From Pedobacter psychrophilus (lineage in GTDB: Bacteria > Bacteroidota > Bacteroidia > Sphingobacteriales > Sphingobacteriaceae), in the NCBI RefSeq assembly GCF_001652725.1, contig NZ_LWHJ01000022.1, positions 62,001-126,000 of the forward strand: DNA of 64,000 bases, given 5' to 3'. The notes below the pieces were generated by a model. That model was not told the origin of the DNA and did not search any database. It worked only from the letters and a program-made list of their open reading frames with translations. Position 1 is the first letter of the stretch. Every line of letters begins with the position of its first letter. The translations under genes and the position numbers were made by a program. Shown here piece by piece: positions 7,986 through 55,487 of the stretch.

Positions 7986-8050
7986 CAAACTTCAAAAAAA
8001 ATTAACATGTAATAGACGTCAAAAAAACTTAATTAGGGGTGCATATGTTC
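7986..8050 (-). promoter_or_regulatory. Tandem half-site operator and -7-like box (site A) for the minus-strand GH3 operon
   Basis: Read on the minus strand, a half-site ACATATGCACCCCTAATTAAG (CCT begins at 8037) is followed by a weaker one, GACGTCTATTAC (TCT begins at 8016). The box GAAGTTTG starts 23 bp further on, at 7993. The layout matches the eight plus-strand sites B to I. The box lies 109 nt before the GH3 ATG. The second half-site is degenerate, so this is the weakest of the nine sites by sequence. Confidence 0.55.
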
Positions 8051-8107
8051 AAATTCTATTTAATATAATTTTTTAGCCTTACATTACTGTTATAATTGAT
8101 ATGGATT

Positions 8108-8136
8108 AAAGTTTTTTAATAAGATCAAAAAACTTT
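8108..8136. repeat. Perfect 10-bp inverted repeat in the divergent region
   Basis: AAAGTTTTTT (8108-8117) and AAAAAACTTT (8127-8136) form a perfect inverted repeat around a 9-nt loop. It sits between two divergent transcription units, where a terminator would be odd. It may be a regulator site or an AT-rich hairpin; no function is assigned. Confidence 0.4.
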
Positions 8137-8404
8137 AAAAAGGTAAGTTCGTACCAGAGTTGCTTGTGTAAAATGAAAAATTTGTTTTAATTTGAGGCCT
8201 GACCAATTCATTTAAAACTTATTAAGTTTCTTCGATTTTATATAGTCACAATTTATTGTAAAATAATTTGCATTCTAAACTATTGTATTTCTTATTAAAA
8301 ATATAAAAGAAATAAAGGTTTATGATTAAAATTATTACCTGTAAAAGAGTATTAATTTTTGGTTAAATTTAAAATTGAAAGAATTTGAAAATGTATTTAA
8401 ACTT

Positions 8405-11400
8405 ATGAGAGATATTGTCTTTAAGTCAATTTTATTCATTTTATTACCTATTTTTCCTTTTGCACAAGATTTAAACTTTAAGCATATATCTTTTAAGGAA
8501 GGCTTAGCCCAAAGCCCTGTTTCAAGTATTTTGCAAGATCATGAAGGCTTTGTTTGGTTTGGTAATTTAAAAGGTTTAACCAGATATGATGGTTATGAAT
8601 TAAAAAAGTTTTCTTTTGATATCTCAGATAAAAATACAATCAGTAATAATAGGGTTAATGCTATTTTACAGGATAATAAACATCAAATTTGGGTAGGAAC
8701 ATCTAATGGATTAAATCTTTATAATAGAGAATTTGAAACCTTTACTAGGATAAATATATTAGAAATAAAAGGAGGAAGAAACTATATTTCCTCTCTTGTA
8801 GAGGATAAGCAGAAAAATATTTGGGTAGGCACATTTGGAGGGTTAAAAAAACTTAATATTCAAACGCTTAAGCTAGAGGATGTTCAGTCAAATACACAAG
8901 ATCCTAATTTTAAAGACTATAGTGTACATTCTTTGTTTGTTGATAAAGACAACAAAATATGGGTAGGTACAAATAACGGATTAAAGCTTTTTGATCCTAC
9001 AACCGGTAAAACCCTTGCTTTACCATCCTATTTTTATCAAAACAAGGATTTTGCTTTAAATAAAATATATGTAACTAAGCAAGACCTAAAAGGAAATTTA
9101 TGGTTCGGAACAGAATTATCAGGTGTTTTTAAGGCATCTGTAAAAGATAATGCAATCACTCATTATTCTTTTGATGAAAATAAAAACTCAATCGCTTCTA
9201 ATTGGGTAAAAGATATTTTAATTGATGAAAATGAAAAAATTTGGTTTGCAACGCGAAATGGAGTAAGTATCTTAAATACCAATAATCAAATATTTACCAA
9301 TTATAAACATGATCCTCTTGATCCAAATAGTTTAAATGATAATACCATTTGGAGTTTTTTGAAAGACAAAAATAAGTGTGTTTGGATTGGAACTTTTGCA
9401 GGAGGGATCAATTTTTATTATAAAGGAAACTCTAACTTCCAAAATATTGGCGAAAGTGTAGGGAAATCTATAGGGCTTAACCATGGCTTAGTAAATGCAA
9501 TAACAGAAGATCAAGATGGCTCATTATGGGTAGGTACTTTTGGTGGGGGCTTAAACTTTATTGATAGGGCCAAAAGCCTAAGTAAATACTATTCTATAAA
9601 TCCACAAAGTTCTACATCATCTACTACAGGTATTAGGTCCTTAGCTGATGATGGTAAAGGTAATTTATGGGTAGGAAGTTTAAATGGTTTAGGGCTTTTC
9701 AATAAAACTAATAAAACCTATACTCCATATAATTTTAAACTTAAAAGTGGCAGGTTAATAGAAAACTTAATTATCTGCGTACTACCGGATAGCGATGGTG
9801 TATGGGTAGGTACTGATGGAGGAGGATTGATGTATGTAATTTACAATGGCGAGAGATCTTTAATATTACTAAAGGATGCAAACAATAACGCCAATTTAAA
9901 TAGTCTAATCTTTAGACCAAACAATAACACCAAAGGAATATTTTACCCTTTAATCCCAAAAGAAGATCCTATCATTAAAAAAGGCTTAATTGATAATTTC
10001 ATTACTTCTTTATGTAAGGATGGGGATAACTTTCTTTGGATAGGTACACAAAATGGACTCAATTATTATGATATAAAAAATAAAAAAGTTTTATATACCT
10101 ATCAAAAAGTAAGAACAACAGAATTTCAGCTTTCTAATAGTAATGTTAATTCGATATTTAAAGATTCTAAAAACAGACTATGGATAGGTACTGAAGAAGG
10201 TGGACTTAATTATTTTGAAAAAAGCACAAAAAGGTTTTATAACATTGGAAAAAACGAAGGATTAAAAGATAATGTAATCCATAGTATTGTTGAGGATAAA
10301 GCTGGTAACTTATGGCTAAGTACAGATTTAGGGATAAATAAAATTCATTTTAAAAAATTTAGCGTTCCCTTTAACAAAAATGATTTAATAGTTACAGGAT
10401 ACACATCAAATGACGGATTAACCAGCAACCAGTTTTCTACAAAAGCAGGTTTAAGATTAAAATCTAATGAAATTGCATTTGGAGGAGTAAATGGGCTGTC
10501 TATTTTTTATCCTAATAAAATTATTAAAAATACAGCTCCCCCAAAAGTAGTAATCACTCAACTTTTAGTAAATAATAAGATACCTAAAATTGGAGAAAAA
10601 GGTTCTCCATTATTAATGTCTATTACAGAAACTAACAAGATAGAATTAGCCTATGATCAATCCTCATTTAGCATTAAATATGCTGCTTTAAACTTTATTA
10701 ACCCTGATAATAATGTATACGCCTATAAATTAGAAGGTTTGGCCAGAGCAGATGAATGGCAAAGCGTAGGGAAACAAAGAGTAGTTAACTTTGCAAATCT
10801 CCCTCCTGGTCGTTATCTATTTAAAGTTAAGGCCGCCAATAATGATAGAATTTGGGGTAATGATATTAAAAGTTTAAAAATTATTGTTCTTCCTCCATGG
10901 TGGGCTACGTGGTGGGCTTACCTTATCTATATTATCATTATTAGCTTTATAATTTCAATTGTTTTTCGGTTTCTTAGAAATAGATCTAGACTCAAAAGAG
11001 ATTTGTATTTAGAACATGTTCTTAATACAAGAAGGGAAGAGCTTTATCAAATGAAGCTTGATTTTTTCACCAATATCTCTCATGAAATTCGTACACCATT
11101 AACTTTAATCTTAGGTCCTATTGATAAAATTATCAGAAGTGGTAATGCAAGCGAATTTTCTAAGCCTTTAAACACCATAAGAAATAATGCAGATAGGCTT
11201 ATGAAGCTGGTAACTGAGTTATTAGAATTTAGAAAGGCAGAAGAAGGACATATGAAAATTTACTGTTTGCAAGAAGACATCATAGCATTCTGTAAAGAAA
11301 TTTATGAATCATTTACTTCAATTGCCCTTGATAAAGAAATCAATTACCAATTTATTGCACCAAAAGAACCTATCCTTATCTATTTTGATCAAAATCAATT

Positions 11401-12640
11401 AGAAAAAGTATTATTTAACTTATTGTCAAATGCCTTTAAATTTACTCCTGATGGAGGTAAAGTTGATTTAATTATTGAAAATAGTATAAAAGGCGAGGAT
11501 TGGATTGATATTAAAGTTTTAGATAACGGAAAGGGTATTCCATTAGATATGCAAGCCAATCTTTTTGAAAGTTTTTTCCAAGTTGATGACCGTGGAAGGC
11601 ATAATATTGGAAGCGGTATTGGTTTGGCACTTTCTAAAAGTATTGTAGAGTTACACAAAGGACTGATAAGTTTAGAAAGTGATGGTAAACTAAATGGTAC
11701 AACAAGTTTTACAGTTTCATTAAGAAAAGGAAGCACTCATTTTTCTGAAGAAGAATTGATAAGTGAAATTGATTCTAATTACTCATTTAAAACATTTACA
11801 TCAAATAAAGATATTCCTCTTGAAAATGATAATGTTTTAACAAACCTAAATATTTCAAAAAAGTATACAGTTTTAGTGGTAGAAGATAATGATGAGGTTA
11901 GAAAACTTGTTGCAGATATACTTATTGATAAATATAAAGTCATTCAGTTTTCAAATGCCAATGAGGCACTAGCTTCCATGGATCGAGAAATACCTGACTT
12001 GATTATAAGCGACATTATGATGGCAGGGATGGATGGCTTAGATTTTTGTAAAAATGTGAAATTGAATGAATCTACCAGCCATATTCCGTTTGTCTTGCTT
12101 ACTGCAAAAGCGTCTGTTAATCATCAAATTGATGGGTTAACTAAAGGTGCAGATGCATATCTTTCAAAACCTTTTAGTCCTTCTATCCTTGAGCTAAATA
12201 TTAAGAACTTATTACATGCCCAGGAAGTAATGAGACAGAAATTTGGGCATCAGTTTATTTTACAACCTTCTCCAATTAGTATCGTCTCGCCAGAAGAGAA
12301 GTTTTTGAACAAATTAATGAACATTATTGAAAGTAAGATAGAGGATTCTAATTTTGATGTGAATGAGTTAGTTAGCGAAATTGGGATGAGCAGGACGGTA
12401 TTATATAAAAAAGTTCAATCTTTAACAGGATATGCGGTAGCAGATTTAATAAAACAAATGAGATTAAAAAAAGCTGCCGAATTATTTAAACACAGTAGCT
12501 ATTCCGTCGCAGAAGTTGCCTATATGGTAGGGTTTAATGATCGCAAGCATTTCAGTAAAGAGTTTAAAAAGCAATTTGATATTTCCCCTTCAGAATATAT
12601 CTCAAATTTCCAAGCCAGGCAAAGCAGTCAAAATTTATAA
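8405..12640 (+). CDS. Hybrid two-component system sensor/response regulator (HTCS 1)
   Basis: A 1411-aa one-protein two-component system. The frame is open from a TTG at 8375, but the ATG at 8405 gives a proper signal peptide (MRDIVFKSILFILLPIFPFAQ). Residues about 25-700 are periplasmic Reg_prop propeller repeats, recognizable by recurring (I/L)WVGT.(N/G)GL motifs. A Y_Y_Y domain follows (about 740-820, ending PPWWATWWAY), then one transmembrane helix (about 835-857). Next come a HisKA domain with phospho-acceptor His893 in FFTNISHEIRTPLT, an HATPase domain (N-box NLLSNAFKFT, DNGKGI, GSGIGLALSK), a receiver domain with Asp1203 in IISDIMMAGMDG, and a C-terminal AraC-type helix-turn-helix. HTCS proteins sense oligosaccharides in the periplasm and activate nearby PUL genes. 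It lies between the minus-strand GH3 operon and the first SusC, whose promoters both carry the shared operator, so it is a prime candidate for their activator. Confidence 0.95.
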   Translation: MRDIVFKSILFILLPIFPFAQDLNFKHISFKEGLAQSPVSSILQDHEGFVWFGNLKGLTRYDGYELKKFSFDISDKNTISNNRVNAILQDNKHQIWVGTSNGLNLYNREFETFTRINILEIKGGRNYISSLVEDKQKNIWVGTFGGLKKLNIQTLKLEDVQSNTQDPNFKDYSVHSLFVDKDNKIWVGTNNGLKLFDPTTGKTLALPSYFYQNKDFALNKIYVTKQDLKGNLWFGTELSGVFKASVKDNAITHYSFDENKNSIASNWVKDILIDENEKIWFATRNGVSILNTNNQIFTNYKHDPLDPNSLNDNTIWSFLKDKNKCVWIGTFAGGINFYYKGNSNFQNIGESVGKSIGLNHGLVNAITEDQDGSLWVGTFGGGLNFIDRAKSLSKYYSINPQSSTSSTTGIRSLADDGKGNLWVGSLNGLGLFNKTNKTYTPYNFKLKSGRLIENLIICVLPDSDGVWVGTDGGGLMYVIYNGERSLILLKDANNNANLNSLIFRPNNNTKGIFYPLIPKEDPIIKKGLIDNFITSLCKDGDNFLWIGTQNGLNYYDIKNKKVLYTYQKVRTTEFQLSNSNVNSIFKDSKNRLWIGTEEGGLNYFEKSTKRFYNIGKNEGLKDNVIHSIVEDKAGNLWLSTDLGINKIHFKKFSVPFNKNDLIVTGYTSNDGLTSNQFSTKAGLRLKSNEIAFGGVNGLSIFYPNKIIKNTAPPKVVITQLLVNNKIPKIGEKGSPLLMSITETNKIELAYDQSSFSIKYAALNFINPDNNVYAYKLEGLARADEWQSVGKQRVVNFANLPPGRYLFKVKAANNDRIWGNDIKSLKIIVLPPWWATWWAYLIYIIIISFIISIVFRFLRNRSRLKRDLYLEHVLNTRREELYQMKLDFFTNISHEIRTPLTLILGPIDKIIRSGNASEFSKPLNTIRNNADRLMKLVTELLEFRKAEEGHMKIYCLQEDIIAFCKEIYESFTSIALDKEINYQFIAPKEPILIYFDQNQLEKVLFNLLSNAFKFTPDGGKVDLIIENSIKGEDWIDIKVLDNGKGIPLDMQANLFESFFQVDDRGRHNIGSGIGLALSKSIVELHKGLISLESDGKLNGTTSFTVSLRKGSTHFSEEELISEIDSNYSFKTFTSNKDIPLENDNVLTNLNISKKYTVLVVEDNDEVRKLVADILIDKYKVIQFSNANEALASMDREIPDLIISDIMMAGMDGLDFCKNVKLNESTSHIPFVLLTAKASVNHQIDGLTKGADAYLSKPFSPSILELNIKNLLHAQEVMRQKFGHQFILQPSPISIVSPEEKFLNKLMNIIESKIEDSNFDVNELVSEIGMSRTVLYKKVQSLTGYAVADLIKQMRLKKAAELFKHSSYSVAEVAYMVGFNDRKHFSKEFKKQFDISPSEYISNFQARQSSQNL

Positions 12641-12687
12641 ATTCTGTGGAATTTGGTTGTTGTATCCCTTCTTTACAACAATTCGAT

Positions 12688-12751
12688 ACGTTTTACCCCT
12701 CATATAAGTACGTTTTAACGCCTTCATTTGGGGTGTTTGTATTCATATTTG
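12688..12751 (+). promoter_or_regulatory. Tandem half-site operator and -7-like box (site B) for the first SusC operon
   Basis: Half-sites ACGTTTTACCCCTCAT (12688) and ACGTTTTAACGCCTTCATT (12710) are direct repeats, with CCT at 12698 and 12721. The box CATATTTG starts 23 bp later, at 12744, and the SusC ATG is 60 nt downstream of the box. The same layout occurs at eight other promoters in the window. Confidence 0.7.
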
Positions 12752-12803
12752 TATAGTTATCATCCATAGATAATAAACCAATTTTTAAACCAAACCGATT
12801 AAA

Positions 12804-15800
12804 ATGAGAAATCTTTACAAAAAGAAACTTTTTACATGTAATCTATTTGGTAATTATCTAAAAAATGCATTATTCGCATTTTTTTGTTTGTTGTGTTTAG
12901 ATTCATTTTCACAAGAAACTGTAATTACCGGAGTAGTAAAAGATCAAACAGGTATTTCCCTTCCAGGGGTTAGCGTATCTGTAAAAGGCACTACTAGTGG
13001 TGTGTCTACTAACGAATCAGGAATTTTTAGTATTAAAGTCCCTAACCCACAATCCACATTAGTGTTTAGATACTTAGGCTTTAAAACTAAAGAGCAAGCT
13101 GTTGGCACCAACAACAACCTCACTATTATTTTACAAGAAAGTATTAATGATTTAACAGAAGTTGTAGTTGTAGGATATGGCGAGCAGAAAAAATCTACCT
13201 TAACAGGAGCTATTGGTACAGTAAGCTCAAAAGAGATCTTAAAATCACCAACATCTAACGTCACCAACAGTTTAGTGGGTAGAGTAGCTGGCTTAACTGC
13301 AGTACAACAAGGTGGCCAACCCGGTAATAATGCAGCTGTAATTAATATCAGGGGAGCTGCTACTTATGGTAACACTGGTGCAATTGTTATAGTTGATGGG
13401 ATAGAAAGAGCAAGCTTCGGGGATATTGATCCAAATGAAATAGAAACGGTTTCTGTTTTAAAAGATGCTTCATCAACAGCAATATTTGGTATAAAGGGTG
13501 CAAACGGAGTTATTATCGTTACCACCAAACAAGGTAAAGAAGGTAAACCAAGAATTAGCTACAGCGGAAACACCAGTATGCAAACTTATACCGGTATACC
13601 TAAAGCTGTTAGTTCTTATGATAATGCTTTTTTAATGAATGAGGCTGATAGAAATGATTCTAGAGCAGAAACTTGGACAGCAGAAGAATTACAAAAATTT
13701 AAAGACGGATCAGACCCTTATGGTTATCCTGATGTAAATTGGTTTGAGTATGTAACACGTAAAGCCTATTTACAAACACAACACAACGTAAACGTAAGCG
13801 GAGGAACTAAACTAATAAAGTATTTTACTTCTGTAGGTTACCTTTTTGAAGACGGGATTTTTAAAAAGTTTGATTCTCCATACGGGTTTAGCACCACGCC
13901 TTCTTACACTAGGTATAACTTTAGGTCTAATATTGATTTAAACCTTACAAAAAACTTACAAGTGAGTGTGCGTTTAGGCGGTAGGTTAGGTCAAAGATAT
14001 CAACCAGCAGGTTTAGGCGGTAATGCGTTTGCTTATGATAACGTAGAAGGAATGATTTCTAGAATCCTACAAACTCCATCTTTCGCTTATCCAGTTTTTT
14101 TAGCCGATGGTAGAATAGCGCAAAATGCAGATGTTGGTACAAATATTTGGAATCCATTGGCGGTTATTACCCGGTTTGGAACCAGAGTAGATGATGCAAA
14201 TACTATTGAAAGTACCTTTAATATCAATTATAAATTAGATGGAATAACAAAGGGACTGTCTTTTAAAAGTGTATTTGGTTACGATTCTTATTTCACGAGT
14301 AATGCCAGAAGAAATGCCAATTGGGCTGCTTATAGGCAAGATAGAAGAACTGGCGAAATAACCTTAGATATAGCCAGAACTAGAGACGAACCATTGAGTG
14401 GTATCATATCAACAAGTAGTGGAAATATCAATAGCAACATCCAGTTAGGCTTTAATTATAACAGAAGTTTTGGAAGTCATAATGTATCAAGTGTATTATT
14501 AGCTACCAGACAAATAAATCAAGTAGAAGGTACTGGTTTATTTGCTGCGCCAAGAGCTTCAGAAGGTATTGTAAATCGAACCACTTATAACTACAAAGAA
14601 AAATATTTTGCCGAATTTAATATGGCTTACAATGGTTCAGAAGCTTTTGCACCTGGTTTTCAATATGGTTTTTTCCCAGCATTTTCTGGTGGTTGGAATC
14701 TATCAAAAGAGAATTTTTTGAAAGAGGTTACATGGATAGATAATCTTAAAATTAGAGGTTCTTATGGTTTGGTTGGTAATGATCAAGTAAATTCTCCAAA
14801 TCGTTTTTTATTTTTAACTGATTTTAGTGTTCAAAATGGAGGAATTGGATTTGGACTCCCAACTTCTGTTGTTACCTCACCAACAGTAATTGTTACAGGT
14901 AATGCAGAGGGAAATCCTTTAATTACTTGGGAAACTGGAACTAAAAGAAACATCGGTTTTGAAAGTTCGTTTTTCAAAAACTCTCTATCCTTAACTGTAG
15001 ACCTATTTGACGAAACCAGGAGAAGTATTTTAACCCCTAAAATATCTGGACAAGTTATTTATGGATTAAATTATCCAGCACTAAATATTGGGGAAGTTTA
15101 TAACAAAGGTTATGAAGTTGAATTAAGCTATAGAAATAATATAGGAAAACTTGATTATGGTTTAAACACACAAGTTTCTTTTGCAAGAAATAATATCATA
15201 ACAAGAGATGAGCCAATTAATACACCTGCTAATAGATTGCAAGCTGGTAATAGAGTAGGTCAGTTTTATGGATTTACTACTTTAGGATTTTATGAATCAT
15301 TAGCAGATATAAATTCTTATTTACCCACCACTTTAGGCCCAAGAATCCCAGGTGATATAAAATATAAAGATATTGACGGTGATGGAGTGATTACTGCTGA
15401 TGATACATCGCCAATTGGTTTCTCTAGGCTGCCAGAATATACTTACAGTTTTGCTCCTTCTCTATCTTATAAAGGGGTAAGCTTATCAGTTTTATTTCAA
15501 GGAGTTGCAAATGTGAGCTCTGATGTGATTTTAACCGAGCAAAATAATGGTTACCAATTATATGATCATCATTTAGAAAGATGGACGCCAGAAACAGCAG
15601 CTACAGCAACTTGGCCAGCATTACACGCCAGAGGTAATGGTAGTAGCAATTATCGTTTAAACGATTTTTTATTGCAAAACGCGGCTTATCTTAAAATTAG
15701 AAATACTGAATTATCCTGGAATTTACCTCAAAAATGGGTAAGCTCTTTAAAATTAAATTCATTAAGAGTTTTCTTAAACGGCCAAAATTTATATACCTGG

Positions 15801-15920
15801 ACTAAGTTTAAATTTTATTTAGATCCAGAAAACATCAACGCCAATAATGGTAATTTCTCCCGTCAATCGGTTTATCCAACATCAAGAGTGTATAACCTTG
15901 GTTTAAACGTAACCCTATAA
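12804..15920 (+). CDS. SusC/RagA-family TonB-dependent transporter (first pair)
   Basis: A 1038-aa outer-membrane oligosaccharide importer. After a long signal region (to about residue 36, LLCLDSFSQ) comes a carboxypeptidase-regulatory-like domain (about 40-115, VITGVVKDQTGISLPGVSVS). A TonB-box-like stretch follows (EVVVVGYGEQKKSTLTGAI), then the plug with the SusC signature DPNEIETVSVLKDASSTAIFG and GANGVIIVTTKQGK. A 22-strand type barrel ends in the terminal aromatic-poor YNLGLNVTL. With the SusD 10 nt downstream it would form the gated pedal-bin complex that moves oligosaccharides into the periplasm using TonB energy. It heads a SusC-SusD-SusC-SusD operon directly behind HTCS 1 and has operator B upstream. 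Confidence 0.96.
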   Translation: MRNLYKKKLFTCNLFGNYLKNALFAFFCLLCLDSFSQETVITGVVKDQTGISLPGVSVSVKGTTSGVSTNESGIFSIKVPNPQSTLVFRYLGFKTKEQAVGTNNNLTIILQESINDLTEVVVVGYGEQKKSTLTGAIGTVSSKEILKSPTSNVTNSLVGRVAGLTAVQQGGQPGNNAAVINIRGAATYGNTGAIVIVDGIERASFGDIDPNEIETVSVLKDASSTAIFGIKGANGVIIVTTKQGKEGKPRISYSGNTSMQTYTGIPKAVSSYDNAFLMNEADRNDSRAETWTAEELQKFKDGSDPYGYPDVNWFEYVTRKAYLQTQHNVNVSGGTKLIKYFTSVGYLFEDGIFKKFDSPYGFSTTPSYTRYNFRSNIDLNLTKNLQVSVRLGGRLGQRYQPAGLGGNAFAYDNVEGMISRILQTPSFAYPVFLADGRIAQNADVGTNIWNPLAVITRFGTRVDDANTIESTFNINYKLDGITKGLSFKSVFGYDSYFTSNARRNANWAAYRQDRRTGEITLDIARTRDEPLSGIISTSSGNINSNIQLGFNYNRSFGSHNVSSVLLATRQINQVEGTGLFAAPRASEGIVNRTTYNYKEKYFAEFNMAYNGSEAFAPGFQYGFFPAFSGGWNLSKENFLKEVTWIDNLKIRGSYGLVGNDQVNSPNRFLFLTDFSVQNGGIGFGLPTSVVTSPTVIVTGNAEGNPLITWETGTKRNIGFESSFFKNSLSLTVDLFDETRRSILTPKISGQVIYGLNYPALNIGEVYNKGYEVELSYRNNIGKLDYGLNTQVSFARNNIITRDEPINTPANRLQAGNRVGQFYGFTTLGFYESLADINSYLPTTLGPRIPGDIKYKDIDGDGVITADDTSPIGFSRLPEYTYSFAPSLSYKGVSLSVLFQGVANVSSDVILTEQNNGYQLYDHHLERWTPETAATATWPALHARGNGSSNYRLNDFLLQNAAYLKIRNTELSWNLPQKWVSSLKLNSLRVFLNGQNLYTWTKFKFYLDPENINANNGNFSRQSVYPTSRVYNLGLNVTL

Positions 15921-15930
15921 AACGAAAATC

Positions 15931-17643
15931 ATGAAAAAGATAAACCAACTTATATTCCTTTTTGCTGTAACCTTTATGGCAATTTCCTGCAAAAAGGCGT
16001 TCTTAGATAAAGCACCAAGTGTTAATTTATCAGAAGATCGTGTTTTTAGCGATCCTGTTTTGGCAGTTCAATATGCAAATAACGCTTACAACTTTTTAAT
16101 TCAAGATTACGCTCGTTTTAATACCCACCGAGCCATTACCGGTCAATTTTCTGATGAGGCAGTTTCAGGTAATACTGAAATAGCTGTGCGTACCATTACA
16201 CAAGGCACCTATCATGATCATACAGGTTTTAGTAATGATATTGTAGATGTATATACTAGGTCTTATGCAGGTATCAGAATTGCTAACGTCATGTTATCAA
16301 AAATTGATGGTGTTAACTGGCCAGCAGTAAATAGCCCAAGAAACAGGGTAGAGGGTGAAATGCACTTTATCAGAGCATTTTTATATTTCGAGTTGATTAA
16401 AAGATTTGGCGGCGTAGTTTTAATTGATGAAAGATTAGAAGCAAATGGAGTAAATGATTTTCCAAGAAATACTTACCAAGAGTGTGTAGACTTTATCTTA
16501 AAAGATTTAGATGCAGCTGATGGCCTTTTACCTTTAAATTACAGCACCACTTTAAATGTTGATAATGGTAGAGCTACTATTGGAAGTTCAAAAGCTTTAA
16601 GATCTCGATTATTGCTTTATGCAGCCAGTAAACTTAATAATGATGCTAATGATTTAAACAAATGGAAGTTAGCTGCCGACGCTGCAAAAGCTGTAATGGA
16701 TTTAAACGAATATTCTTTACAAGCTACTTATGCTGATATTTTGAACGTTCCAACTTCAACTGAGTATATCATGACGAAGATTAGAGGTCCAAGATCAAAT
16801 ACAGATAATATTTTTTATGATTTTGCATTACCTCCATCAGCTGGTGGTATTACAGGGCAATTAAATCCTACACAAAACCATGTGGATTTGTATGAGATGA
16901 GTACTACCGGTCGTCCAATTACAGACGCAGCATCGGGATATAATCCTGCAGCACCATATACAAATAGAGACCCTAGGTTGGCAGCAAACATTTTATATAA
17001 TGATGTTTTTTGGCAAGGTAGGAGATTAGAAATGTGGTCTCAGGTAAATCCAACAACCGGAGCTAGAACTTTTGGCAGAGATTACAATGGTACCATCAAC
17101 TATACTGCAACTAGGTATTATAGCCGTAAAATGTGGCCAGAAGTATATGGTGTAAATAAAACAGGTACGGCATTATTGAACTATATCTATTTCAGATATG
17201 CAGAAATTTTATTGAACTATGCAGAAGCCCAAAATGAATTCTCAGGTCCAGATGCTAGTATCTTAATTGCATTAAATCTTATTAGAGCCAGAGCGGGTAT
17301 GCCTGCCTTGCAAACTACTAATCCGGCCGGTGCAGGTTATGTTCCTGAAAATAGGGATGATTTTAGAAAAAGAATTAGAAATGAACGAGCTGTTGAATTA
17401 GCTTTTGAAGATTCCAGATGGTATGATATACAAAGATGGAAAGCGGGGCCTGAGATTGTTGCACAACCCATGTTTGGTATGGATGTGATTAAGAATACAA
17501 ATGGGTCATTTACCTATAATAAGGTGCTTTTGCCAATTGGTTTACAGAAAACATTTTTGGATTATATGCATAGGTATCCAATTCCACGCAGTGAGTTTTT
17601 TAAAAGCCAAGGTAAATTAATTCAGAACCCAGGATGGGAATAA
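15931..17643 (+). CDS. SusD/RagB-family surface glycan-binding lipoprotein (first pair)
   Basis: A 570-aa lipoprotein with a signal peptide and lipobox at Cys20 (FMAISCKKAFLDKAPS). It has the SusD N-terminal region (GRATIGSSKALRSRLLLYAASK, tetratricopeptide-like helices) and the C-terminal RagB/SusD region (YFRYAEILLNYAEAQNEF, RNERAVELAFEDSRWYDIQRWKAG). The final PIPRSEFFKSQGKLIQNPGW is typical for the family. It is anchored at the cell surface as the lid of the SusC pore and binds the target oligosaccharide. It starts 10 nt after SusC, so the two are translated from one message. The ligand cannot be read from sequence. Confidence 0.95.
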   Translation: MKKINQLIFLFAVTFMAISCKKAFLDKAPSVNLSEDRVFSDPVLAVQYANNAYNFLIQDYARFNTHRAITGQFSDEAVSGNTEIAVRTITQGTYHDHTGFSNDIVDVYTRSYAGIRIANVMLSKIDGVNWPAVNSPRNRVEGEMHFIRAFLYFELIKRFGGVVLIDERLEANGVNDFPRNTYQECVDFILKDLDAADGLLPLNYSTTLNVDNGRATIGSSKALRSRLLLYAASKLNNDANDLNKWKLAADAAKAVMDLNEYSLQATYADILNVPTSTEYIMTKIRGPRSNTDNIFYDFALPPSAGGITGQLNPTQNHVDLYEMSTTGRPITDAASGYNPAAPYTNRDPRLAANILYNDVFWQGRRLEMWSQVNPTTGARTFGRDYNGTINYTATRYYSRKMWPEVYGVNKTGTALLNYIYFRYAEILLNYAEAQNEFSGPDASILIALNLIRARAGMPALQTTNPAGAGYVPENRDDFRKRIRNERAVELAFEDSRWYDIQRWKAGPEIVAQPMFGMDVIKNTNGSFTYNKVLLPIGLQKTFLDYMHRYPIPRSEFFKSQGKLIQNPGWE

Positions 17644-17688
17644 GCTGTCCTTTAAACCAAAATGAATTAAACCATTAAACGAAACAAC

Positions 17689-20721: not shown

Positions 20722-20754
20722 TTATATAAGTAAGAAATACTAAGTTATAAGATC

Positions 20755-22428: not shown

Positions 22429-22436
22429 GTAACTAT

Positions 22437-22476: not shown

Positions 22477-22510
22477 ATCTTAAATATAAATCCAACTACT
22501 TTTACAAAAC

Positions 22511-41540: not shown

Positions 41541-41566
41541 AACCAATAAAAATTTATAAATAATAT

Positions 41567-43874: not shown

Positions 43875-43931
43875 ATGCTCAAAAAATCAAATCAATAAGC
43901 CATTAATGTTTTTTAAAGCGGCTTTTTTACT

Positions 43932-43994
43932 CATTTGCCCCTTAATCACGGTACAAATGTAATCTATAATTTAAGGCTTATGTACCTAGTTTAG
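43932..43994 (+). promoter_or_regulatory. Tandem half-site operator and -7-like box (site G) for the GH88-PL8 operon
   Basis: Half-sites CATTTGCCCCTTAATCAC (43932) and ACAAATGTAATCTATAATT (43953) have CCT at 43940 and TCT at 43963. The box TAGTTTAG, one base off TAnnTTTG, starts 24 bp later at 43987. Sites H and I share this TAnnTTAG form. Confidence 0.6.
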
Positions 43995-45248: not shown

Positions 45249-45258
45249 GCTTAAATAA

Positions 45259-47424: not shown

Positions 47425-47436
47425 ACTTTAATCATC

Positions 47437-49197
47437 ATGAAAAGAAAATTACTCACAACATTAATTTTTGCTTTAGGAGCATTTTATGCATCTGCACAAT
47501 TTACTCCTGGTAATTTGGCAGTGTATCGTTACGGAAATGGAACAGCAGCTTTAGCTAACGATGTTACTGTACCAGTTTTTATAGACGAATATACACCTGC
47601 TGGTGTTTTAGTTAAAAGCAGAGCAATTCCAACTACAGATATTGTAACTGGTAGCTTTACCAATCTTAAACTCACAGGACTAGGAAGAGATGTGAATGGT
47701 AAATATGTGAATGAAGGAATTTCTACCTTATCCCAAGACGGTAAATATTTAACCATTTTTGGATATAACCAAGCTGTTGGAGGCGCAGTTCCTACTTCAG
47801 CAAACGGATTGGTAGTAGGTGTAATTGCTGCAGACGAAAGTTACAATAGCACCACCACACTTTCTAATGATCCCACAACAGGATTAGGATTTCCAAGATC
47901 TGCCGTTACTGACGGAACTGGTATTTGGGCGAATGGTTCTCAAAATGGAATTCAATATACAACATTGGGTGGTACTAGCAGCACTCGTATAAATACAGTT
48001 GGTCAGCAAAATGCCTCAAATAGTTTAATTATAGCTAAAACCTATTCCTCTGGAGTTCTTGGTGCAAATAGACTATATGTAGCAAACGGTTTCGGAGGCA
48101 CATCCTTTCCTTTTGCCACACCTTTACCTACAACTTCTACATCATTTGATGTTACTGGACCATTTACATCATCTATAACAGCTAATCAGGTTGCTTTTGT
48201 TTCAGTTGGAACAAGAACACTAATTTATGTTGTGGACGGAGCAAGTAATTCAATAAGAAGATATTGGCTAAACAGTGCTGGTGCTGCATTAATTTTTTAT
48301 GGACCATCAGGATCTGCGGGATTTACAGATGGCAATTTTACTAATATTAAAAGTATAACGGCAACGTATAACTCTACATTATCAACCGGTACTAAAGCAG
48401 TAGTTGATGTTTATGTTACAACATGGGGAAATGACGGCACAGGGACTGAAACTTCTAAATTACTAACGTTTCAAGATGCATATACACCTGGCTCTACTAT
48501 AACAACTTACGGTACTGGAGCAACCGCAACGGCTAACCAAGCATTACTTGCAAGTACAGCATTAGTAATAAAAGAAGCCCCAGCAAATACATTATTCAAA
48601 AGTGTAACTTTTGTTCCAACTGGTAGTACTGCCATTGGTACAGGAACTTTACCTGTAAACCTAACCGGTTTTAACGGAAAAAAATCCGGAGATAATGTTA
48701 TCTTAAACTGGGCTACTTTAAGCGAGCAAAATAACTCGTACTTTGATGTTTTACGTTCTGGTAATGGAAAAGATTTTTCTAGCATCGGTAAAGTTACCGG
48801 TAATGGAAATTCTAATGGTAAAATCAATTATTCTTTTACCGATAAAACCCCAGAGTTTGGTACCAATTATTATCACTTAAATCAGGTAGATTTTGATGGT
48901 AAAACAACTCCATCAGAAACTGTAGCTGTAAATTTTGGTTTTGCAGAAAACCTAACATTGTCAGTAAGTTCATCAACAGATAACAGTGGTTTAACAGCGG
49001 TTATAAACACCCCAGCAATTGTTAATGGTAAAATTAACGTAATTTCTATATCCGGACAGCAAGTTGCAACAGTTGATGTAAGTTTAGAAAAAGGTAAAAA
49101 TTATATCGATATTCCTTCAAAACTTCAACCCGGTGTTTATGTAATTACTTTATCTAGTGATAAAGGAAAAATATCGCAAAAAATTAGTTTAAGATAA
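47437..49197 (+). CDS. T9SS-secreted protein of unknown function, propeller-like (copy 2)
   Basis: A 586-aa paralogue of the protein at 24608-26269. The order is a signal peptide (to ASAQ), a beta-rich region (FTPGNLAVYRYGNGTAALAN, FIDEYTPAGVLVKSR, EGISTLSQDGKYLTIFGYN, SAVTDGTGIWANGSQNG, VYVTTWGNDGTGTETSKLL), a fibronectin-like module (LPVNLTGFNGKKSGDNVILNW) and a type A T9SS sorting domain (KINVISISGQQVATVDV, LQPGVYVITLSSDKGK). The two copies run side by side over their whole length, this one being longer by small insertions. It is the last gene of the GH88-PL8 operon, starting 12 nt after PL8. Function is unknown; co-expression with the lyase argues for a role in glycan contact outside the cell. 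Confidence 0.8.
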   Translation: MKRKLLTTLIFALGAFYASAQFTPGNLAVYRYGNGTAALANDVTVPVFIDEYTPAGVLVKSRAIPTTDIVTGSFTNLKLTGLGRDVNGKYVNEGISTLSQDGKYLTIFGYNQAVGGAVPTSANGLVVGVIAADESYNSTTTLSNDPTTGLGFPRSAVTDGTGIWANGSQNGIQYTTLGGTSSTRINTVGQQNASNSLIIAKTYSSGVLGANRLYVANGFGGTSFPFATPLPTTSTSFDVTGPFTSSITANQVAFVSVGTRTLIYVVDGASNSIRRYWLNSAGAALIFYGPSGSAGFTDGNFTNIKSITATYNSTLSTGTKAVVDVYVTTWGNDGTGTETSKLLTFQDAYTPGSTITTYGTGATATANQALLASTALVIKEAPANTLFKSVTFVPTGSTAIGTGTLPVNLTGFNGKKSGDNVILNWATLSEQNNSYFDVLRSGNGKDFSSIGKVTGNGNSNGKINYSFTDKTPEFGTNYYHLNQVDFDGKTTPSETVAVNFGFAENLTLSVSSSTDNSGLTAVINTPAIVNGKINVISISGQQVATVDVSLEKGKNYIDIPSKLQPGVYVITLSSDKGKISQKISLR

Positions 49198-49206
49198 TTT
49201 CTTTTT

Positions 49207-49245
49207 AATAAGGCTTAAATAAATGTTTAAGCCTTATTAATTTTC
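49207..49245 (+). terminator. Rho-independent terminator before HTCS 2
   Basis: The perfect 13-bp stem AATAAGGCTTAAA (49207-49219) / TTTAAGCCTTATT (49226-49238) has a 6-nt loop and is followed by AATTTTCTT. It ends the GH88-PL8 transcript about 45 nt before the HTCS 2 start. Confidence 0.83.
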
Positions 49246-49287
49246 TTATTTTGGTGCACCTAATTATAAGTGACCAAATTTTCTCAA

Positions 49288-52200
49288 ATGATAAGATCCA
49301 TAAAGTCTTTTATTCTTCTATTATTTCTGATTCAAAATTCTTTTGCACAAAATTTAGAATTTAAACATATTTCTATTGATAATGGATTATCCCAAAATAC
49401 TGTTAATTCCATTGCACAAGATAAAAAAGGAATTATTTGGGTAGGTACTTTAGGAGGTTTAAATAAATTTAACGGTTACGATTTTACGGTCTACAGTCAT
49501 AACGAAAGAGACAGTACTTCTATAAGTCATAATAGAATTAATGTTGTTTTTATCGATAAAGAGGGAAAACTTTGGATAGGTACAGATGACGGATTAAATC
49601 TTTATAATCCAAAAAACGAAACTTTTAGCCTTATAAAAAATGCGATTGATGAAAGATATTTTGTTTATTGTATAGCACAGGATAAAACAGGGAGACTTTG
49701 GGTAGGTACACAGCAAGGACTAAAATATTTAGATAAAAAAACCAATAAACTAATAGATGTAGAGTTAAATATCTCTAATATCAATAAAAGAGTTCAAAGC
49801 ATTTACGAAGATGATAAAGGACTTTTATGGGTAGGCCTTGCAAAAGGTTTTAAAATTTATAATTACCTAAAACATCAAACATCAGATGGGCCAAAGCTGC
49901 TTCAAGAAAGCTTGAGTAATTCTTGGATTCAGTCTATCAAACAATCAGAAAATAAAGATTTTTGGTTTGCCACAGAAAACGATGGTGCATTTGTTTATAA
50001 AACACAAACAAATCAAATCTTTAATTATAATAAAGCTAAAGGTATACTTAGTAATACAGTAAGGGACATTCTATTTAAAGATAGTGAACACATATGGATG
50101 GCTACAAAAATGGGGCTCAGTATATTAAACCTCACATCTGGCGAGATCATAAATTATGGCTATGCTCCCAACTTAAGTTCAGAAAACTCCTTAAGCCACC
50201 CCTCTGTAAAATGCTTATTTAAAGATAAATCCCAAAATATTTGGTTGGGTACTTATGCAGGAGGTATCAATTTAATCTATAATTTCTCAAAGATATTTTC
50301 TTACAAAGGGATTAGGCAGGGCGATGTAAATCCACTATCAAATAAAGAAGTAAATGCCATTTTAGGTGATGAGGGTAACAAATTCTGGATAGCTACGGAT
50401 GGCGGAGGCCTTAATTATTGGAATAAAGCTACTGGTAAGGTTGATGTTTATAAATACAACACAGATAATGTTCTGTATAATTTTATTAAAGATGTAGCCT
50501 TTGATAATGCTAATAAAAATCAGCTTTGGTTAGGTAGTTCTGCTGGGATTTTAATATTAGATATTCCAAGCAAAAAATTTACAGAATTTAAGGATATACA
50601 AAAAGGTATTAACGTAGAATTTAACCACGATTATAGCTTTCTAAATTCTCCTTATGGTTTATGGGTAGGTACAAATTATAATGGACTTCATCTCATTAAA
50701 AATAATAAAATAATAAAATCCTACACCATTGCGAATGGTAAATTAATTTCCAATAACATTTCTTGCCTATTAATAGAAAAACAATATTTATGGACAGGAT
50801 ACCTTCTTTCTGGGCTAAGTAAAATAAATCTTCAGACAGGAAAAATTAATTCTTACGCTTTTGAAAAGAACAATAAATACAGTTTAAGTAATAATTCCAT
50901 ATCGTGTTTATTTACAGATTCTAAAAACAGATTATGGGTAGGTACAAACGGTGGTGGATTAAATTATTTAGATGAAAAAAACAATAAGTTTTATGTAATT
51001 AATTCACAAAACGGATTAGGTAATAATAATATTCATGCAATAGAAGAAGATAGTAAAGGTGCGCTATGGGTAAGCAGTAATAAGGGAATATTTAAGATTG
51101 TGATTAAATTTGATAAATTTCCTTTAGCGGTTAGGGATATTGATGTTACTAATTATACGGTTTTAGATGGACTTCAAAGTAATCAATTTATTAGAGGTTC
51201 ATCATTTAAAAACAAAGATGGTGAAATGTTTTTTGGAGGGATAAATGGATTAAACAGTTTTTTACCAAATAAAATTGGTTATAATAAAGAAATTCCAAAC
51301 ATCATTTTTACCGATTTTACAATTCTAAACAAGGATAAAGATGCTGACAGCTTGATTCAAAAACCTATAGATTACGCTAAAGAAATAACACTAAATTATG
51401 ATGAAAGTTACTTTACTATAAAATTTGCAGCATTAAATTATATTTTCCCTGAAAGAAATAATTACGCTTATAAATTAGAAGGGTTAAATAAGGATACCTG
51501 GCATTATGTAAAAAATCAAAAAGAGGTAACTTATACAGGTTTGGAACCGGGGACTTACACATTTCTTGTAAAAGCCTCTAACAACAGTGGGATTTGGAAT
51601 GATAATCCTCGACAACTTAAAATTATTGTACTTCCTCCGTGGTGGAAAACAACTTGGGCATATTTTCTATATTTTTTAGTGGTTTTATGTTTGCTTTATT
51701 TATTTAATTACTATACAAAATATACAGAAAGACTTAAAAATACCATTAAATATGAGACAGACTTGTATCATAAAGAACAAGAACTTTCACAAAAGAAATT
51801 AAGTTTTTTCATCAATATATCTCATGAGATTAAAACTCCAATAACCATGATCATGGCACCCCTGCAAAAACTTTTAGCCATGCATGAGGGAAATACTAAA
51901 ACTGCTAATTATTTAGCATTGATGAATAAAAGCGGGCAAAGACTACTTAATTTGATAGACCAGCTTCTTGATTTAAGAAAACTAGACAACAATGGAGTTG
52001 ACCTGAAAGCTGCAAAAGGTAATTTAGTAAGGTTTACAAAAGAAATTGTTATCGTATTTAATAATCTGGCCAAAGTAAAAAACTTAGAACTCACCTTTTC
52101 CTCAGAACAAGAAAAATTAGAATTATGGTTTGATAGAGATACGTTAGAAAAAATTCTTTATAATATAATTTCAAACGCTATTAAATACACACCAGATTAT

Positions 52201-53388
52201 GGCAAAATTGATGTTTCGATAGAAGAGAACACAGAAAGCCAACAGGCTATTATAACGGTATCTGATAATGGTGTAGGTATTGCGAAAGATAGGTTGCCGG
52301 ATATTTTTCAGCCATTTAAGCCATTGGATGTTACCCACAGTAATATTAAAGGTACGGGAGTGGGGCTTGCTTTTGCAAAAGAATTAATCGATTTGCACCA
52401 TGGGTCAATAACTGTAGATAGTCATGAAGCTACTCATGAAAATAGAGGTTACACTAAATTTATTATAAAAATACCTTTGGGTAAAGAATATTTAGCAGAT
52501 AAAGAGCTGGACAAAGAATATCTCATTTCCGAGGATATCAATAATTATAAATCATATAGTTTAAAACAACAAAATAATTTTAGGGAAAGAAAGGATCAGA
52601 TTCAGCAGGCAAATGATAATGAAAAATTTACGATGTTATTGGTAGAGGATAATCCCGATGTTATCAATTTCTTAGCTGAAAGTTTTGAGGAGAATTTTAC
52701 TGTACTTAAAAGTTTTGATGGTTCAGCAGGTCTTCAAGAAGCATTAAACAGTATGCCCGATATCATCATTAGTGATGTGATGATGCCCTTAATGGATGGG
52801 ATAGAATTATGTAGCAAATTAAAATCAAATATCATCACCAGCCATATTCCTGTAATATTGCTTACCGCAAGAAGCCCGCTAATTTTTAAGCTCCAAGGTT
52901 TAGAGAATGGTGCAGATGATTACGTTACAAAACCATTTAATTTCGATTTACTAGATGTAAAGGTTTGGAACCTTATAGAAAATCGTCAGAAAATGAAATT
53001 GAGATATCAGAAAGAGATCACCTTACAACCAACAAACACTAGTATATCCACATTTGATGATAAATTTTTAGAAAATGTGATGAAATATATTGAAGATAAT
53101 ATTGCCGAAGAATCTTTAAGTGTAGAAGATTTGAGCCAACACATTGGGATGAGTAGAGGAAATCTATATCGTAAACTAAAAATGCTTACTAGTAAAAGTC
53201 CTGTAGAGTTCATTAGGCACATCAGGTTAAAGAGAGCTGCCCAACTTTTAAAACAGCATAAAATGTATATCAATGAAGTATCTTATATGGTAGGTTTTCA
53301 AAATGTAACTTATTTCAGAAAATGCTTTAAAGAAGAGTTTGGATATACACCTACAGGTTTTGCAAAAAACGACGACGAGGAAGAATAA
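49288..53388 (+). CDS. Hybrid two-component system sensor/response regulator (HTCS 2)
   Basis: A 1366-aa protein; the frame opens at a GTG (49270), but the ATG at 49288 gives the better signal peptide (MIRSIKSFILLLFLIQNSFAQ). The order is the same as in HTCS 1: Reg_prop periplasmic propeller repeats (WVGTLGGLNKFNGYDF and many similar), a Y_Y_Y domain ending LPPWWKTTWAYF, and one transmembrane helix (about 789-808). Then come HisKA with His846 in FFINISHEIKTPIT, HATPase (NIISNAIKYT, DNGVGI, GTGVGLAFAK), a receiver with Asp1163 in IISDVMMPLMDG and an AraC-type DNA-binding end. It is a paralogue of HTCS 1. No copy of the shared operator lies in its own promoter region. It is followed after 12 nt by a PL14/PL20-like lyase gene, so sensor and enzyme are probably co-transcribed. 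Confidence 0.95.
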   Translation: MIRSIKSFILLLFLIQNSFAQNLEFKHISIDNGLSQNTVNSIAQDKKGIIWVGTLGGLNKFNGYDFTVYSHNERDSTSISHNRINVVFIDKEGKLWIGTDDGLNLYNPKNETFSLIKNAIDERYFVYCIAQDKTGRLWVGTQQGLKYLDKKTNKLIDVELNISNINKRVQSIYEDDKGLLWVGLAKGFKIYNYLKHQTSDGPKLLQESLSNSWIQSIKQSENKDFWFATENDGAFVYKTQTNQIFNYNKAKGILSNTVRDILFKDSEHIWMATKMGLSILNLTSGEIINYGYAPNLSSENSLSHPSVKCLFKDKSQNIWLGTYAGGINLIYNFSKIFSYKGIRQGDVNPLSNKEVNAILGDEGNKFWIATDGGGLNYWNKATGKVDVYKYNTDNVLYNFIKDVAFDNANKNQLWLGSSAGILILDIPSKKFTEFKDIQKGINVEFNHDYSFLNSPYGLWVGTNYNGLHLIKNNKIIKSYTIANGKLISNNISCLLIEKQYLWTGYLLSGLSKINLQTGKINSYAFEKNNKYSLSNNSISCLFTDSKNRLWVGTNGGGLNYLDEKNNKFYVINSQNGLGNNNIHAIEEDSKGALWVSSNKGIFKIVIKFDKFPLAVRDIDVTNYTVLDGLQSNQFIRGSSFKNKDGEMFFGGINGLNSFLPNKIGYNKEIPNIIFTDFTILNKDKDADSLIQKPIDYAKEITLNYDESYFTIKFAALNYIFPERNNYAYKLEGLNKDTWHYVKNQKEVTYTGLEPGTYTFLVKASNNSGIWNDNPRQLKIIVLPPWWKTTWAYFLYFLVVLCLLYLFNYYTKYTERLKNTIKYETDLYHKEQELSQKKLSFFINISHEIKTPITMIMAPLQKLLAMHEGNTKTANYLALMNKSGQRLLNLIDQLLDLRKLDNNGVDLKAAKGNLVRFTKEIVIVFNNLAKVKNLELTFSSEQEKLELWFDRDTLEKILYNIISNAIKYTPDYGKIDVSIEENTESQQAIITVSDNGVGIAKDRLPDIFQPFKPLDVTHSNIKGTGVGLAFAKELIDLHHGSITVDSHEATHENRGYTKFIIKIPLGKEYLADKELDKEYLISEDINNYKSYSLKQQNNFRERKDQIQQANDNEKFTMLLVEDNPDVINFLAESFEENFTVLKSFDGSAGLQEALNSMPDIIISDVMMPLMDGIELCSKLKSNIITSHIPVILLTARSPLIFKLQGLENGADDYVTKPFNFDLLDVKVWNLIENRQKMKLRYQKEITLQPTNTSISTFDDKFLENVMKYIEDNIAEESLSVEDLSQHIGMSRGNLYRKLKMLTSKSPVEFIRHIRLKRAAQLLKQHKMYINEVSYMVGFQNVTYFRKCFKEEFGYTPTGFAKNDDEEE

Positions 53389-53400
53389 CAATAAAATCTA

Positions 53401-54240
53401 ATGAAATCTATTAATCAAACCATATTAAGATGGAGTTTATATTCTGTCTCTTTATTTCTTTGTGTAAGCAATAAATCATTATTTGCTCAATCAGTAAGTC
53501 AAAAAGCAAATTCTCTGAAATCAAATATTGATTTAAATTGGGATAAATCTAAGCCGGGACCATATTCTTATTCAAATGCAGTAAAAGATTTCGGATCAAT
53601 AATAGACTGGGCTCCAAGTCGTACAGATATAATAGATGGTACGTTTAGAGTTACTCTTTTACCAAACTTACTATCAGGTTATGGTGGCTTAGTGGCTAAA
53701 ACTTTAATTGAAGAAGGCACTGTTTACGAACTTACTTATGATGTTAAATTTGATAAAGATTTTGATTTTGGAAAAGGCGGGAAAGTTGGTTTTGGTTTAA
53801 GAGTGGGAGATGGAAATACCGGATGCGATAAAGCGAACGATGGCAACGGTGGGAGTGCTAGATTAATGTGGTATACCAGCGATGGAACCACTAAGTTTAA
53901 ACCATACATGTATTATTTTGATATGCCAGAGAATTGTGGGGATAATATGGTTTCAAATGCTTTTTATCCAAAAGAAGGAAGCATAGAAAAAGGTAAATGG
54001 TACAATATAAAAATATATGTTAAGAGCAATAATGCCAATCAAAAAGATGGCATGATAAAAGTTTCTATCGATGGAAATATAGTTCTTGATCAACCCATCA
54101 GATGGACAGCTAATAATGCTAAAAGATTTATCAATAAACTCTCTAATGATACTTTTAGAGGAGGCAGTGGAAATGATTGGAAGACTGATAATACTGGTTA
54201 CATTTATTTAGATCATCTAACGCTTAAGAAAATAGAATAG
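53401..54240 (+). CDS. Secreted jelly-roll protein, PL14/PL20-like (alginate/glucuronan lyase type)
   Basis: A 279-aa protein with a signal peptide (to KSLFAQ). The beta-jelly-roll shows strands YELTYDVKFDKDFDFGKGGK, VGFGLRVGDGN, GNGGSARLMWYTSDG, FKPYMYYFDMPENCGDN, EKGKWYNIKIYVKSN and a final TFRGG...YIYLDHLTLKK. GGK...G, SARLMW and Y.YY patterns are those of the PL14/PL20-type lyase fold, whose members degrade alginate or glucuronan. I recognize the fold better than the exact family, and catalytic residues cannot be proven. It directly follows HTCS 2, apparently in one transcript. A frameshifted paralogue lies 252 bp downstream. If it is a lyase it would supply unsaturated glucuronate ends to GH88 and GH105. 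Confidence 0.68.
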   Translation: MKSINQTILRWSLYSVSLFLCVSNKSLFAQSVSQKANSLKSNIDLNWDKSKPGPYSYSNAVKDFGSIIDWAPSRTDIIDGTFRVTLLPNLLSGYGGLVAKTLIEEGTVYELTYDVKFDKDFDFGKGGKVGFGLRVGDGNTGCDKANDGNGGSARLMWYTSDGTTKFKPYMYYFDMPENCGDNMVSNAFYPKEGSIEKGKWYNIKIYVKSNNANQKDGMIKVSIDGNIVLDQPIRWTANNAKRFINKLSNDTFRGGSGNDWKTDNTGYIYLDHLTLKKIE

Positions 54241-54355
54241 AATTATTTCCCAATTGTAAACATTTCATCAGTATTGCTTTTTGTATTAAAGACACAAAAA
54301 AAAGTCTTTACAACATCATTTATTAGCCTTTTAACACCATATAAAGAGGTTTTGA

Positions 54356-54419
54356 ACAAATGTATGCTATTATAGTAACAAATGTTATCTATTTAAAATC
54401 TCAAACCACCCTACTTTAG
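54356..54419 (+). promoter_or_regulatory. Tandem half-site operator and -7-like box (site H)
   Basis: Half-sites ACAAATGTATGCTATTATAG (54356) and ACAAATGTTATCTATTTAAA (54378) are exact 22-bp direct repeats over ACAAATGT. The box TACTTTAG starts 24 bp after the second core, at 54412. A third, weaker repeat (ACCACCCTACTTT) overlaps the box. Confidence 0.65.
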
Positions 54420-54492
54420 CATAACCTTTTATAAGTGATGTTTCTGTTTCGTCTATCGAATAAAGAGCATTGTTCAAAAACCATAATTAAAA

Positions 54493-55376
54493 ATGAGTCA
54501 ATATTTCAATAAAACAAAACTTTCGCTTTGCCTTATGTTGGGTTTAAGTTTAACCGTTGTGATTTCTTGTAAAAAAGATGATGCTCCTGTTTACCCAGTC
54601 ACAAATATTCCAGATGTCAAACCTCCAACAGGTGAAACAGGAATGATAACATTTGATAGTTATCCTAATGGAATTTACTCTTCTGCAATGGCTCGTAATG
54701 ATTTTTATGGAACTAATGTTTCTTCCTGGAAAGATAGTAGAGCAGAAATAGTTGATAAAGCTCTGCGTGTTAAATTAATGCCAGGCGATGTTAACCAAGG
54801 CTTTTACCCTCAATTTGACATTGTGGATGGTACAAGTTATGAAGTAACCTTTGATTTGAAATTTGCAAAGGGCTTTGATTGGTCTTTAGGCGGTAAATTA
54901 GGTGTAGGCTTTGGTATTGGAGATGTAATAGCAGGAGGAAATGCAACCAATGGAAATGGAGGAAGTGCCAGAATAATGTGGAACAAAACATCAACAGGGA
55001 AAGTGATTTTTAAACCATACCTATATTATGAAGGAATGCCAGACCAATTTGGTACTAATGTAGTAAGCTCTGCTTTTTCCCACAAACAGGAAGTTTAACT
55101 GACGACACCTGGTATACCATAAAAATACGTGTAAAAAGTAATACAGATTTTAAGGCTAACGGTTCCATCTTAGTTAAGGTGAATGGGTTAGAAATCTTAA
55201 ATAGTAACACCATTAATTGGGGTGATAACACCGGTGGAAAAAACAAAGGTTTAATCAAAACACTAATGTTCCAAACTTTTAGAGGTGGGCAAGGCGTAGA
55301 ATGGGAATCTAATGTTGATAGTTATATCATATACGATAACATTAAAGTAACAAAAGATCCTACTGCAGCATTTTAG
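54493..55376 (+). pseudogene. Frameshifted PL14/PL20-like jelly-roll lipoprotein
   Basis: Two frames together make one 294-aa lipoprotein, a paralogue of 53401-54240. The first frame (54493-55098) has lipobox Cys26 with an export-like CKKDD start, then GGKLGVGFGIGDVIAGGN, GNGGSARIMWNKTS and FKPYLYYEGMP, and runs into HKQEV and a stop. The second frame continues with PTGSLTDDTWYTIKIRVKSN to the end at 55376 (TFRGGQGVEWESN, YIIYDNIKVTK). The shift lies near 55074-55081 in TTTTTCCC and is repaired by adding one base. No further stops occur, so this is either a sequencing error in a homopolymer or a very young mutation. If intact it would be a surface lyase or glycan-binding lipoprotein under operator H. 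Confidence 0.75.
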
Positions 55377-55424
55377 GCGGTGGAATACGCAACAATTTTT
55401 TATAAAAAAATTAAAGATTATTGT

Positions 55425-55487
55425 ACAAATGAGATTTAATTTATGTACAAATGTAGCCTATTGCAGGCTCAACATTATCTAATTTAG
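55425..55487 (+). promoter_or_regulatory. Tandem half-site operator and -7-like box (site I) for the second SusC block
   Basis: TACAAATG occurs twice exactly 22 bp apart (55424 and 55446), and the second half-site continues as TACAAATGTAGCCTATTG with CCT at 55457. The box TAATTTAG starts 23 bp later, at 55480. The leader to the SusC ATG is about 162 nt. Confidence 0.65.

Follow-up and report, generated by a model that had tools for sequence, protein, structure and literature searches.

Predicted operators of two HTCS regulators point to adjacent regulons in a polysaccharide-utilisation region of Pedobacter psychrophilus

Nine tandem operator-like sites (A–I) in a polysaccharide-utilisation (PUL) region of Pedobacter psychrophilus most probably belong to two adjacent PUL regulons, one in which HTCS1 binds and activates at sites A–F and another in which HTCS2 binds and activates at sites G–I. 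Among the regulators of PULs, hybrid two-component systems (HTCSs) form a major class, yet few of their operators are known, and this makes the linking of regulators to genes difficult; here, the borders of regulons inside a large PUL cluster were drawn from sequence.

The window, i.e. the whole 64,000-nucleotide stretch that was analysed, is one part of a 4.0-Mb genome assembled in 33 contigs, whose nearest relative among the genomes fetched is Pedobacter segetis (G009). The region is large and encodes GH3, GH2 (beta-glucuronidase-like), GH10, GH88, PL8 and PL14 enzymes as well as several SusC/SusD pairs. HTCS1 and HTCS2 each combine a periplasmic Reg_prop sensor, a HisKA/HATPase kinase, a receiver and an AraC HTH in a single protein, as is characteristic of HTCSs, and no regulator besides these two full-length proteins was found within the window. 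The HTCS1 gene set (GH10, GH3, beta-glucuronidase-like GH2 and GH88) suggests a glucuronic-acid-bearing xylan-type glycan as the substrate, while the HTCS2 set (PL8, PL14 and GH88) suggests a polyuronide; such a difference in substrates would explain why two sensors lie side by side. The HTCS2 gene is possibly part of the site-G transcription unit. With this position (49197-49288), HTCS2 may be positively autoregulated, unlike HTCS1, which has no site. The SusC gene behind site I (55650-59032) is split by one frameshift near 57150 and is either a pseudogene or the product of a sequencing error; its ortholog in Pedobacter segetis (L257:1667-5056) is intact and encodes 1130 aa. An HTCS2 paralog in the same genome (52 % identity; G000:C22:700923-705006, L103) is apparently frameshifted immediately upstream of its DNA-binding domain.

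Predicted operator sites, the genes behind them and the two HTCS genes (window coordinates)
Feature	Coordinates	Strand	Half-sites	Box	Sequence	Genes or domains	Gene coordinates	Remark
Site A	7986-8050	-	8050-8035, 8029-8014 (period 21)	7993-7986	GAAGTTTG	GH3/GH3/ThuA/PD40 genes	7885-968	site upstream; HTCS1 class, degenerate
Site B	12686-12751	+	12686-12701, 12708-12723	12744-12751	CATATTTG	SusC/SusD x2 + beta-glucuronidase-like GH2	12804-24343	promoter
Site C	24443-24508	+	24443-24458, 24465-24480	24501-24508	CATATTTG	secreted protein + GH3	24608-28774	promoter
Site D	28846-28910	+	28846-28861, 28868-28883	28903-28910	CATATTTG	GH10 genes	28989-32758	promoter
Site E	33652-33717	+	33652-33667, 33674-33689	33710-33717	TAAATTTG	GH88 and others	33886 onward	promoter
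Site F	38909-38974	+	38909-38924, 38931-38946	38967-38974	GATATTTG	T9SS-tailed protein, GH3	39087-43810	promoter
Site G	43929-43994	+	43929-43944, 43951-43966	43987-43994	TAGTTTAG	GH88, PL8, secreted protein, HTCS2, PL14	44064-54240	promoter; HTCS2 class
Site H	54354-54419	+	54354-54369, 54376-54391	54412-54419	TACTTTAG	PL14	54493-55098	promoter
Site I	55423-55487	+	55423-55438, 55445-55460	55480-55487	TAATTTAG	SusC/SusD genes	55650-63782	promoter
HTCS1	8375-12640	+				Reg_prop sensor, Y_Y_Y, HisKA, HATPase, receiver, AraC HTH		proposed activator at A-F
HTCS2	49270-53388	+				domain layout as HTCS1; AraC recognition surface differs		proposed activator at G-I

All nine tandem sites listed by the first-pass annotation were present when they were read out and measured. 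The period of the 16-bp direct repeats is 22 bp at eight of the nine sites and 21 bp at site A, so that A–I all carry the half-sites about 21 bp apart expected of an HTCS operator, in each case upstream of PUL genes and with an HTCS gene nearby. Counted from the end of the second half-site, the final G of the box follows at 28 nt (27 nt at D and I), so that a gap of 23–24 bp remains. The earlier reading of the boxes as TAnnTTTG or TAnnTTAG was correct as regards TTTG (A–F) and TTAG (G–I), but just four boxes (E, G, H and I) contain the TA, which the other five lack; boxes without TA would fit activator-dependent promoters. The coverage of nearly every transcription unit likewise held in part: PUL genes follow each of the nine sites, but no operator site was found at HTCS1, at rpiA or in short internal gaps. 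When the −7 box is counted as −12 to −5, as in Flavobacterium (PMC9723704), the second half-site would end at approximately −33, over the sigma −33 element, in agreement with the earlier proposal that an activator site takes the place of this element.

A tied dyad EM, whose training set comprised 30 upstream regions of four relatives and no window sequence, returned the half-site gtACAtaTnnaccCct with a spacing of 22 at a probability of 0.95. When both strands of the window were scanned with this relatives-only model, the top six matches were exactly A–F (15.9–28.9 bits), followed by I in 7th, G in 9th and H in 19th place. A–F, which are of the ACATTTnGACCCCT type and have TTTG boxes, and G–I, which are of the ACAAATGTAnnCTAT type and have TTAG boxes, are, as judged from sequence, separate operator classes (classes 1 and 2, respectively). 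In cross-scoring with models trained outside the window, B–F scored 19.9–28.8 under class 1 and −3.4 to 8.7 under class 2, while G–I scored 8.2–12.3 and 26.4–30.7, respectively, the class-2 model being built from five Pedobacter segetis sites that are not fully independent, as some were first found via window-derived motifs. Three of these five lie at orthologs of the genes behind G, H and I. Site A is a near-tie (14.8 under class 1 and 13.4 under class 2) and was placed in class 1 because its orthologs in Pedobacter segetis and G015 are clearly of this class.

The genome-wide tests were pattern searches. The class-1 pattern together with the box matched five times in the source genome, and four of these matches fall on sites B, C, E and F; the spacing of A and D deviates from the pattern. 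The window-derived class-2 pattern had exactly three matches in the 4.0-Mb genome, namely G, H and I, and a single match in 17 other genomes, which is the site-H ortholog in Pedobacter segetis. With a matrix built solely from Pedobacter segetis sites, the best-ranked places in the window were H, I and G.

The first-pass annotation had tentatively assigned all nine operators to one PUL-wide regulon, which would require a single HTCS to recognise all of them. The common layout and loose ACA core, the presence of G and I among the lower-ranked class-1 matches and the scoring of site A under both classes are consistent with such a regulon, but we regard it as quite improbable given that the classes are told apart by models trained on DNA from outside the window, that half-sites and −7 boxes differ between A–F and G–I, that the locus encodes two different HTCS DNA-binding domains, the putative cognates of the two classes, and that relatives with HTCS1 only have class 1 only. 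Two operator classes were thus found in place of a shared one, and the likeness across the nine sites is a family-level resemblance of HTCS operators.

The assignment of the two classes to two regulators draws on their conservation. When orthologous promoters were aligned, sites B, C, D, F and G proved to be conserved in place; orthologs of A, D and E are also present in relatives, the H ortholog lies at G009:C15:324, and the I ortholog is found on C15 of the same genome upstream of an intact SusC gene; the sites are therefore kept in orthologous PULs with orthologous HTCSs. HTCS1 orthologs occur in five genomes (G000, which is the source genome, G009, G003, G001 and G015), with identities of 77 % in G009, 61 % in G003 and 64 % in G001, and class-1 sites are present in these genomes. 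A close HTCS2 ortholog is found only in G000 and G009 (82 %), and class-2 sites in these two only. G003 and G001 thus serve as natural controls, having HTCS1 and class 1 without a close HTCS2 ortholog and without class 2. Beyond the fetched loci, class-1 pattern matches were observed upstream of a GH3 gene (G003) and a GH5 gene (G015). No class-2-like operator was found near the HTCS2 relative of G005 or near the HTCS2 paralog of the source genome. The operator class thus appears to track its HTCS across genomes, HTCS1 with A–F and HTCS2 with G–I, a correlation that backs the HTCS link drawn earlier.

That a regulator encoded elsewhere, such as an orphan AraC protein, binds the sites while the HTCS genes are merely nearby is very improbable: direct repeats are also bound by proteins of the AraC family, but the window search turned up only HTCS1 and HTCS2, the operator class varies with the HTCSs that a genome carries, and other HTCS groups own operators in the same layout (see below).

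Two further observations concern the relatives. G001 retains the operators although its HTCS1 ortholog (G001:C1:1980934-1985105) is interrupted by in-frame stop codons or a frameshift. Pedobacter segetis encodes an extra HTCS1-like HTCS (G009 C10:59969-64193, L092) beside its site-F ortholog, to which the window has no counterpart. Sites E and F resemble a subset of the Pedobacter segetis sites that is perhaps under this extra regulator there, and they may once have been under it as well.

Chance is excluded for A–F. The log-likelihood of the dyad EM was 174.6 for the real set and 55–68 in 20 dinucleotide shuffles. The TTTG box, which lies outside the model, was found at offset 27/28 in 13 of the 15 sites of the relatives (p=5e-21); it also occurs at the expected offset in all six window sites A–F, a count that weighs less, as the reader had picked these sites by their box. 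In a background of approximately 1.4 Mb from other HTCS loci, one match scored above site A under class 1. The gapped motif search proposed earlier, against shuffled and genome-wide sequence, has thus borne out a fixed spacing beyond chance, with far lower values in the shuffles and class-2 pattern matches at G, H and I only. A chance pattern, or plain sigma-promoter conservation, picked by eye from AT-rich upstream DNA in which TTTG is common, is barely credible given that the shuffles, the background scan and the whole-genome patterns are all contrary to it.

The mechanism that we propose for the two HTCS regulons would begin with the sensing of an oligosaccharide by the HTCS, the dimer of which would set one AraC-type DNA-binding domain on each half-site of approximately 16 bp. 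The period of 21–22 bp corresponds to two helical turns and would place both domains on the same face of the DNA; as the first-pass annotation had pointed out, direct repeats laid out in this way suit output domains of the AraC type. The first HTH would read the 5′ box (ACA) of each half-site, and the second HTH would read the 3′ box, which is CCCT for HTCS1 and CTAT for HTCS2. The proximal half-site would replace the sigma −33 element, and RNA polymerase would thereby be recruited to a weak −7 box. The sites, their spacing, the two classes, their conservation and their co-occurrence with each HTCS are the evidence that sequence provides; binding, dimer geometry, the assignment of each HTH to its box, activation, start sites and ligands we infer.

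The same layout was sought in a wider set of HTCS genes, 71 of them from the genus and 74 from the phylum, which were grouped by DNA-binding domain. An EM run in which the SusC upstream regions of every HTCS locus were pooled caught a leader motif, AACCAATT, rather than operators, and therefore per-group runs were needed. In each group, spacing and box distance were varied on a grid, with dyads anchored to a TT[TA]G on their downstream side; cells with a spacing below 18 were dropped, as overlapping half-sites are artefacts. The summed grid of the genus groups except HTCS1 had its best cell at spacing 22 and distance 27 (z 4.4); with the HTCS2 group also left out, it lay at spacing 21 and distance 30 (z 3.8). 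The phylum groups showed a ridge at spacing 21–23 (best 21, 30) with a less sharp box distance. The best of the 150 cells was among the four expected in 6 of the 29 groups (p ~1e-4), including ph32 and ph2, which were rejected as operator examples due to unconvincing motifs; this test of a common layout is suggestive. Clear operators with unrelated half-sites were obtained for groups 16 (TTGAnnnnnnnnnnCCC), 23b (TTTAAGATnnTCCCC) and 20a (TGAAAGATTnnnATG) and, in the phylum, for ph9 from Sphingobacterium (AACAATTTnTCnCCCC) and ph5 (AATGTCCCnAATCTGAC), while groups 20b, 23c, 17, 10, 9, 5, 7 and 3 yielded none that was clear in their own EM runs.

The leader motif, TAAACCAATT, is sense-strand-biased and lies between the promoter and the start codon of PUL genes (e.g. 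12770-12800 and 24510-24530). AACCAA occurs within 100 nt of the start in 21 of 38 SusC genes, compared with 78 of 405 other genes with a gap and 40 of 395 without one, and its strand counts are 115 sense versus 38 antisense. A link of this motif to the RNA-binding protein RbpB was sought in PMC11697453 and was not found there.

A possible specificity code emerged from the group operators. Five groups (22, 16, 23a, 23b and ph9) carry Lys where the second HTH aligns with MarA Gln92, and in all of them the half-site has a C-run at its 3′ end. None of the five groups in which that position is occupied by a different residue (19, Thr; 20a, Asp/Asn; ph5, ph6 and 2, Ser) has one. Across these ten groups the association has a Fisher p=0.004, a value to be read in light of the small number of groups, of motifs that in some cases come from few or near-identical promoters, and of a MarA alignment that is our own reading. 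Groups 22, 16, 23a, 23b, 19 and 20a served to form the rule; the other four were examined afterwards. We hypothesise that Lys in the second HTH corresponds to a C-run in the half-site; if this holds, HTCS specificity would be partly predictable and testable. The broader proposition, that a rigid HTCS promoter layout (21–22 bp, proximal end at approximately −33) extends across Bacteroidota and that the second-HTH residue matching MarA Gln92 determines which bases are read by it, is tentative, and we lean slightly against it. If it were true, one could predict from the sequence and position of an uncharacterised HTCS which operator it uses. A fixed operator-to-promoter layout would allow a constrained operator search that is workable with a handful of promoters.

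Tandem HTCS operators appear to be already known as a kind. Ravcheev et al. (2013) predicted 16 HTCS motifs in Bacteroides, which are direct repeats with a mean of 21 bp and whose similarity follows the HTH tree (PMC3878776). The main text of that paper does not mention a fixed distance to the −7 box, and no report of one was found in the main texts of the open-access literature, so that this feature is apparently unreported. The primary sigma promoter of Bacteroidota consists of a −7 element, TAnnTTTG, and a −33 element, TTTG (PMC7366714, PMC9723704); the sites described here share a TTTG-type −7 box downstream of each operator, but the second half-site would occupy the place of the −33 element. 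In Bacteroides, binding of HTCSs to target promoters has been demonstrated by EMSA for BT4124 and BT4663 (PMC11253607) and at target PULs by ChIP-seq for BT0366 and BT1754 (PMC3404733), so that binding of the AraC output domain to DNA of its own PUL is experimental there, whereas here it is predicted from sequence. The operators predicted for Bacteroides thetaiotaomicron resemble those described here in the direct repeat, the PUL operons and the adjacent HTCS, but, as far as the main text of PMC3878776 goes, the present case differs in the genus, in the half-sites and in the arrangement of two putative regulons in one contiguous locus.
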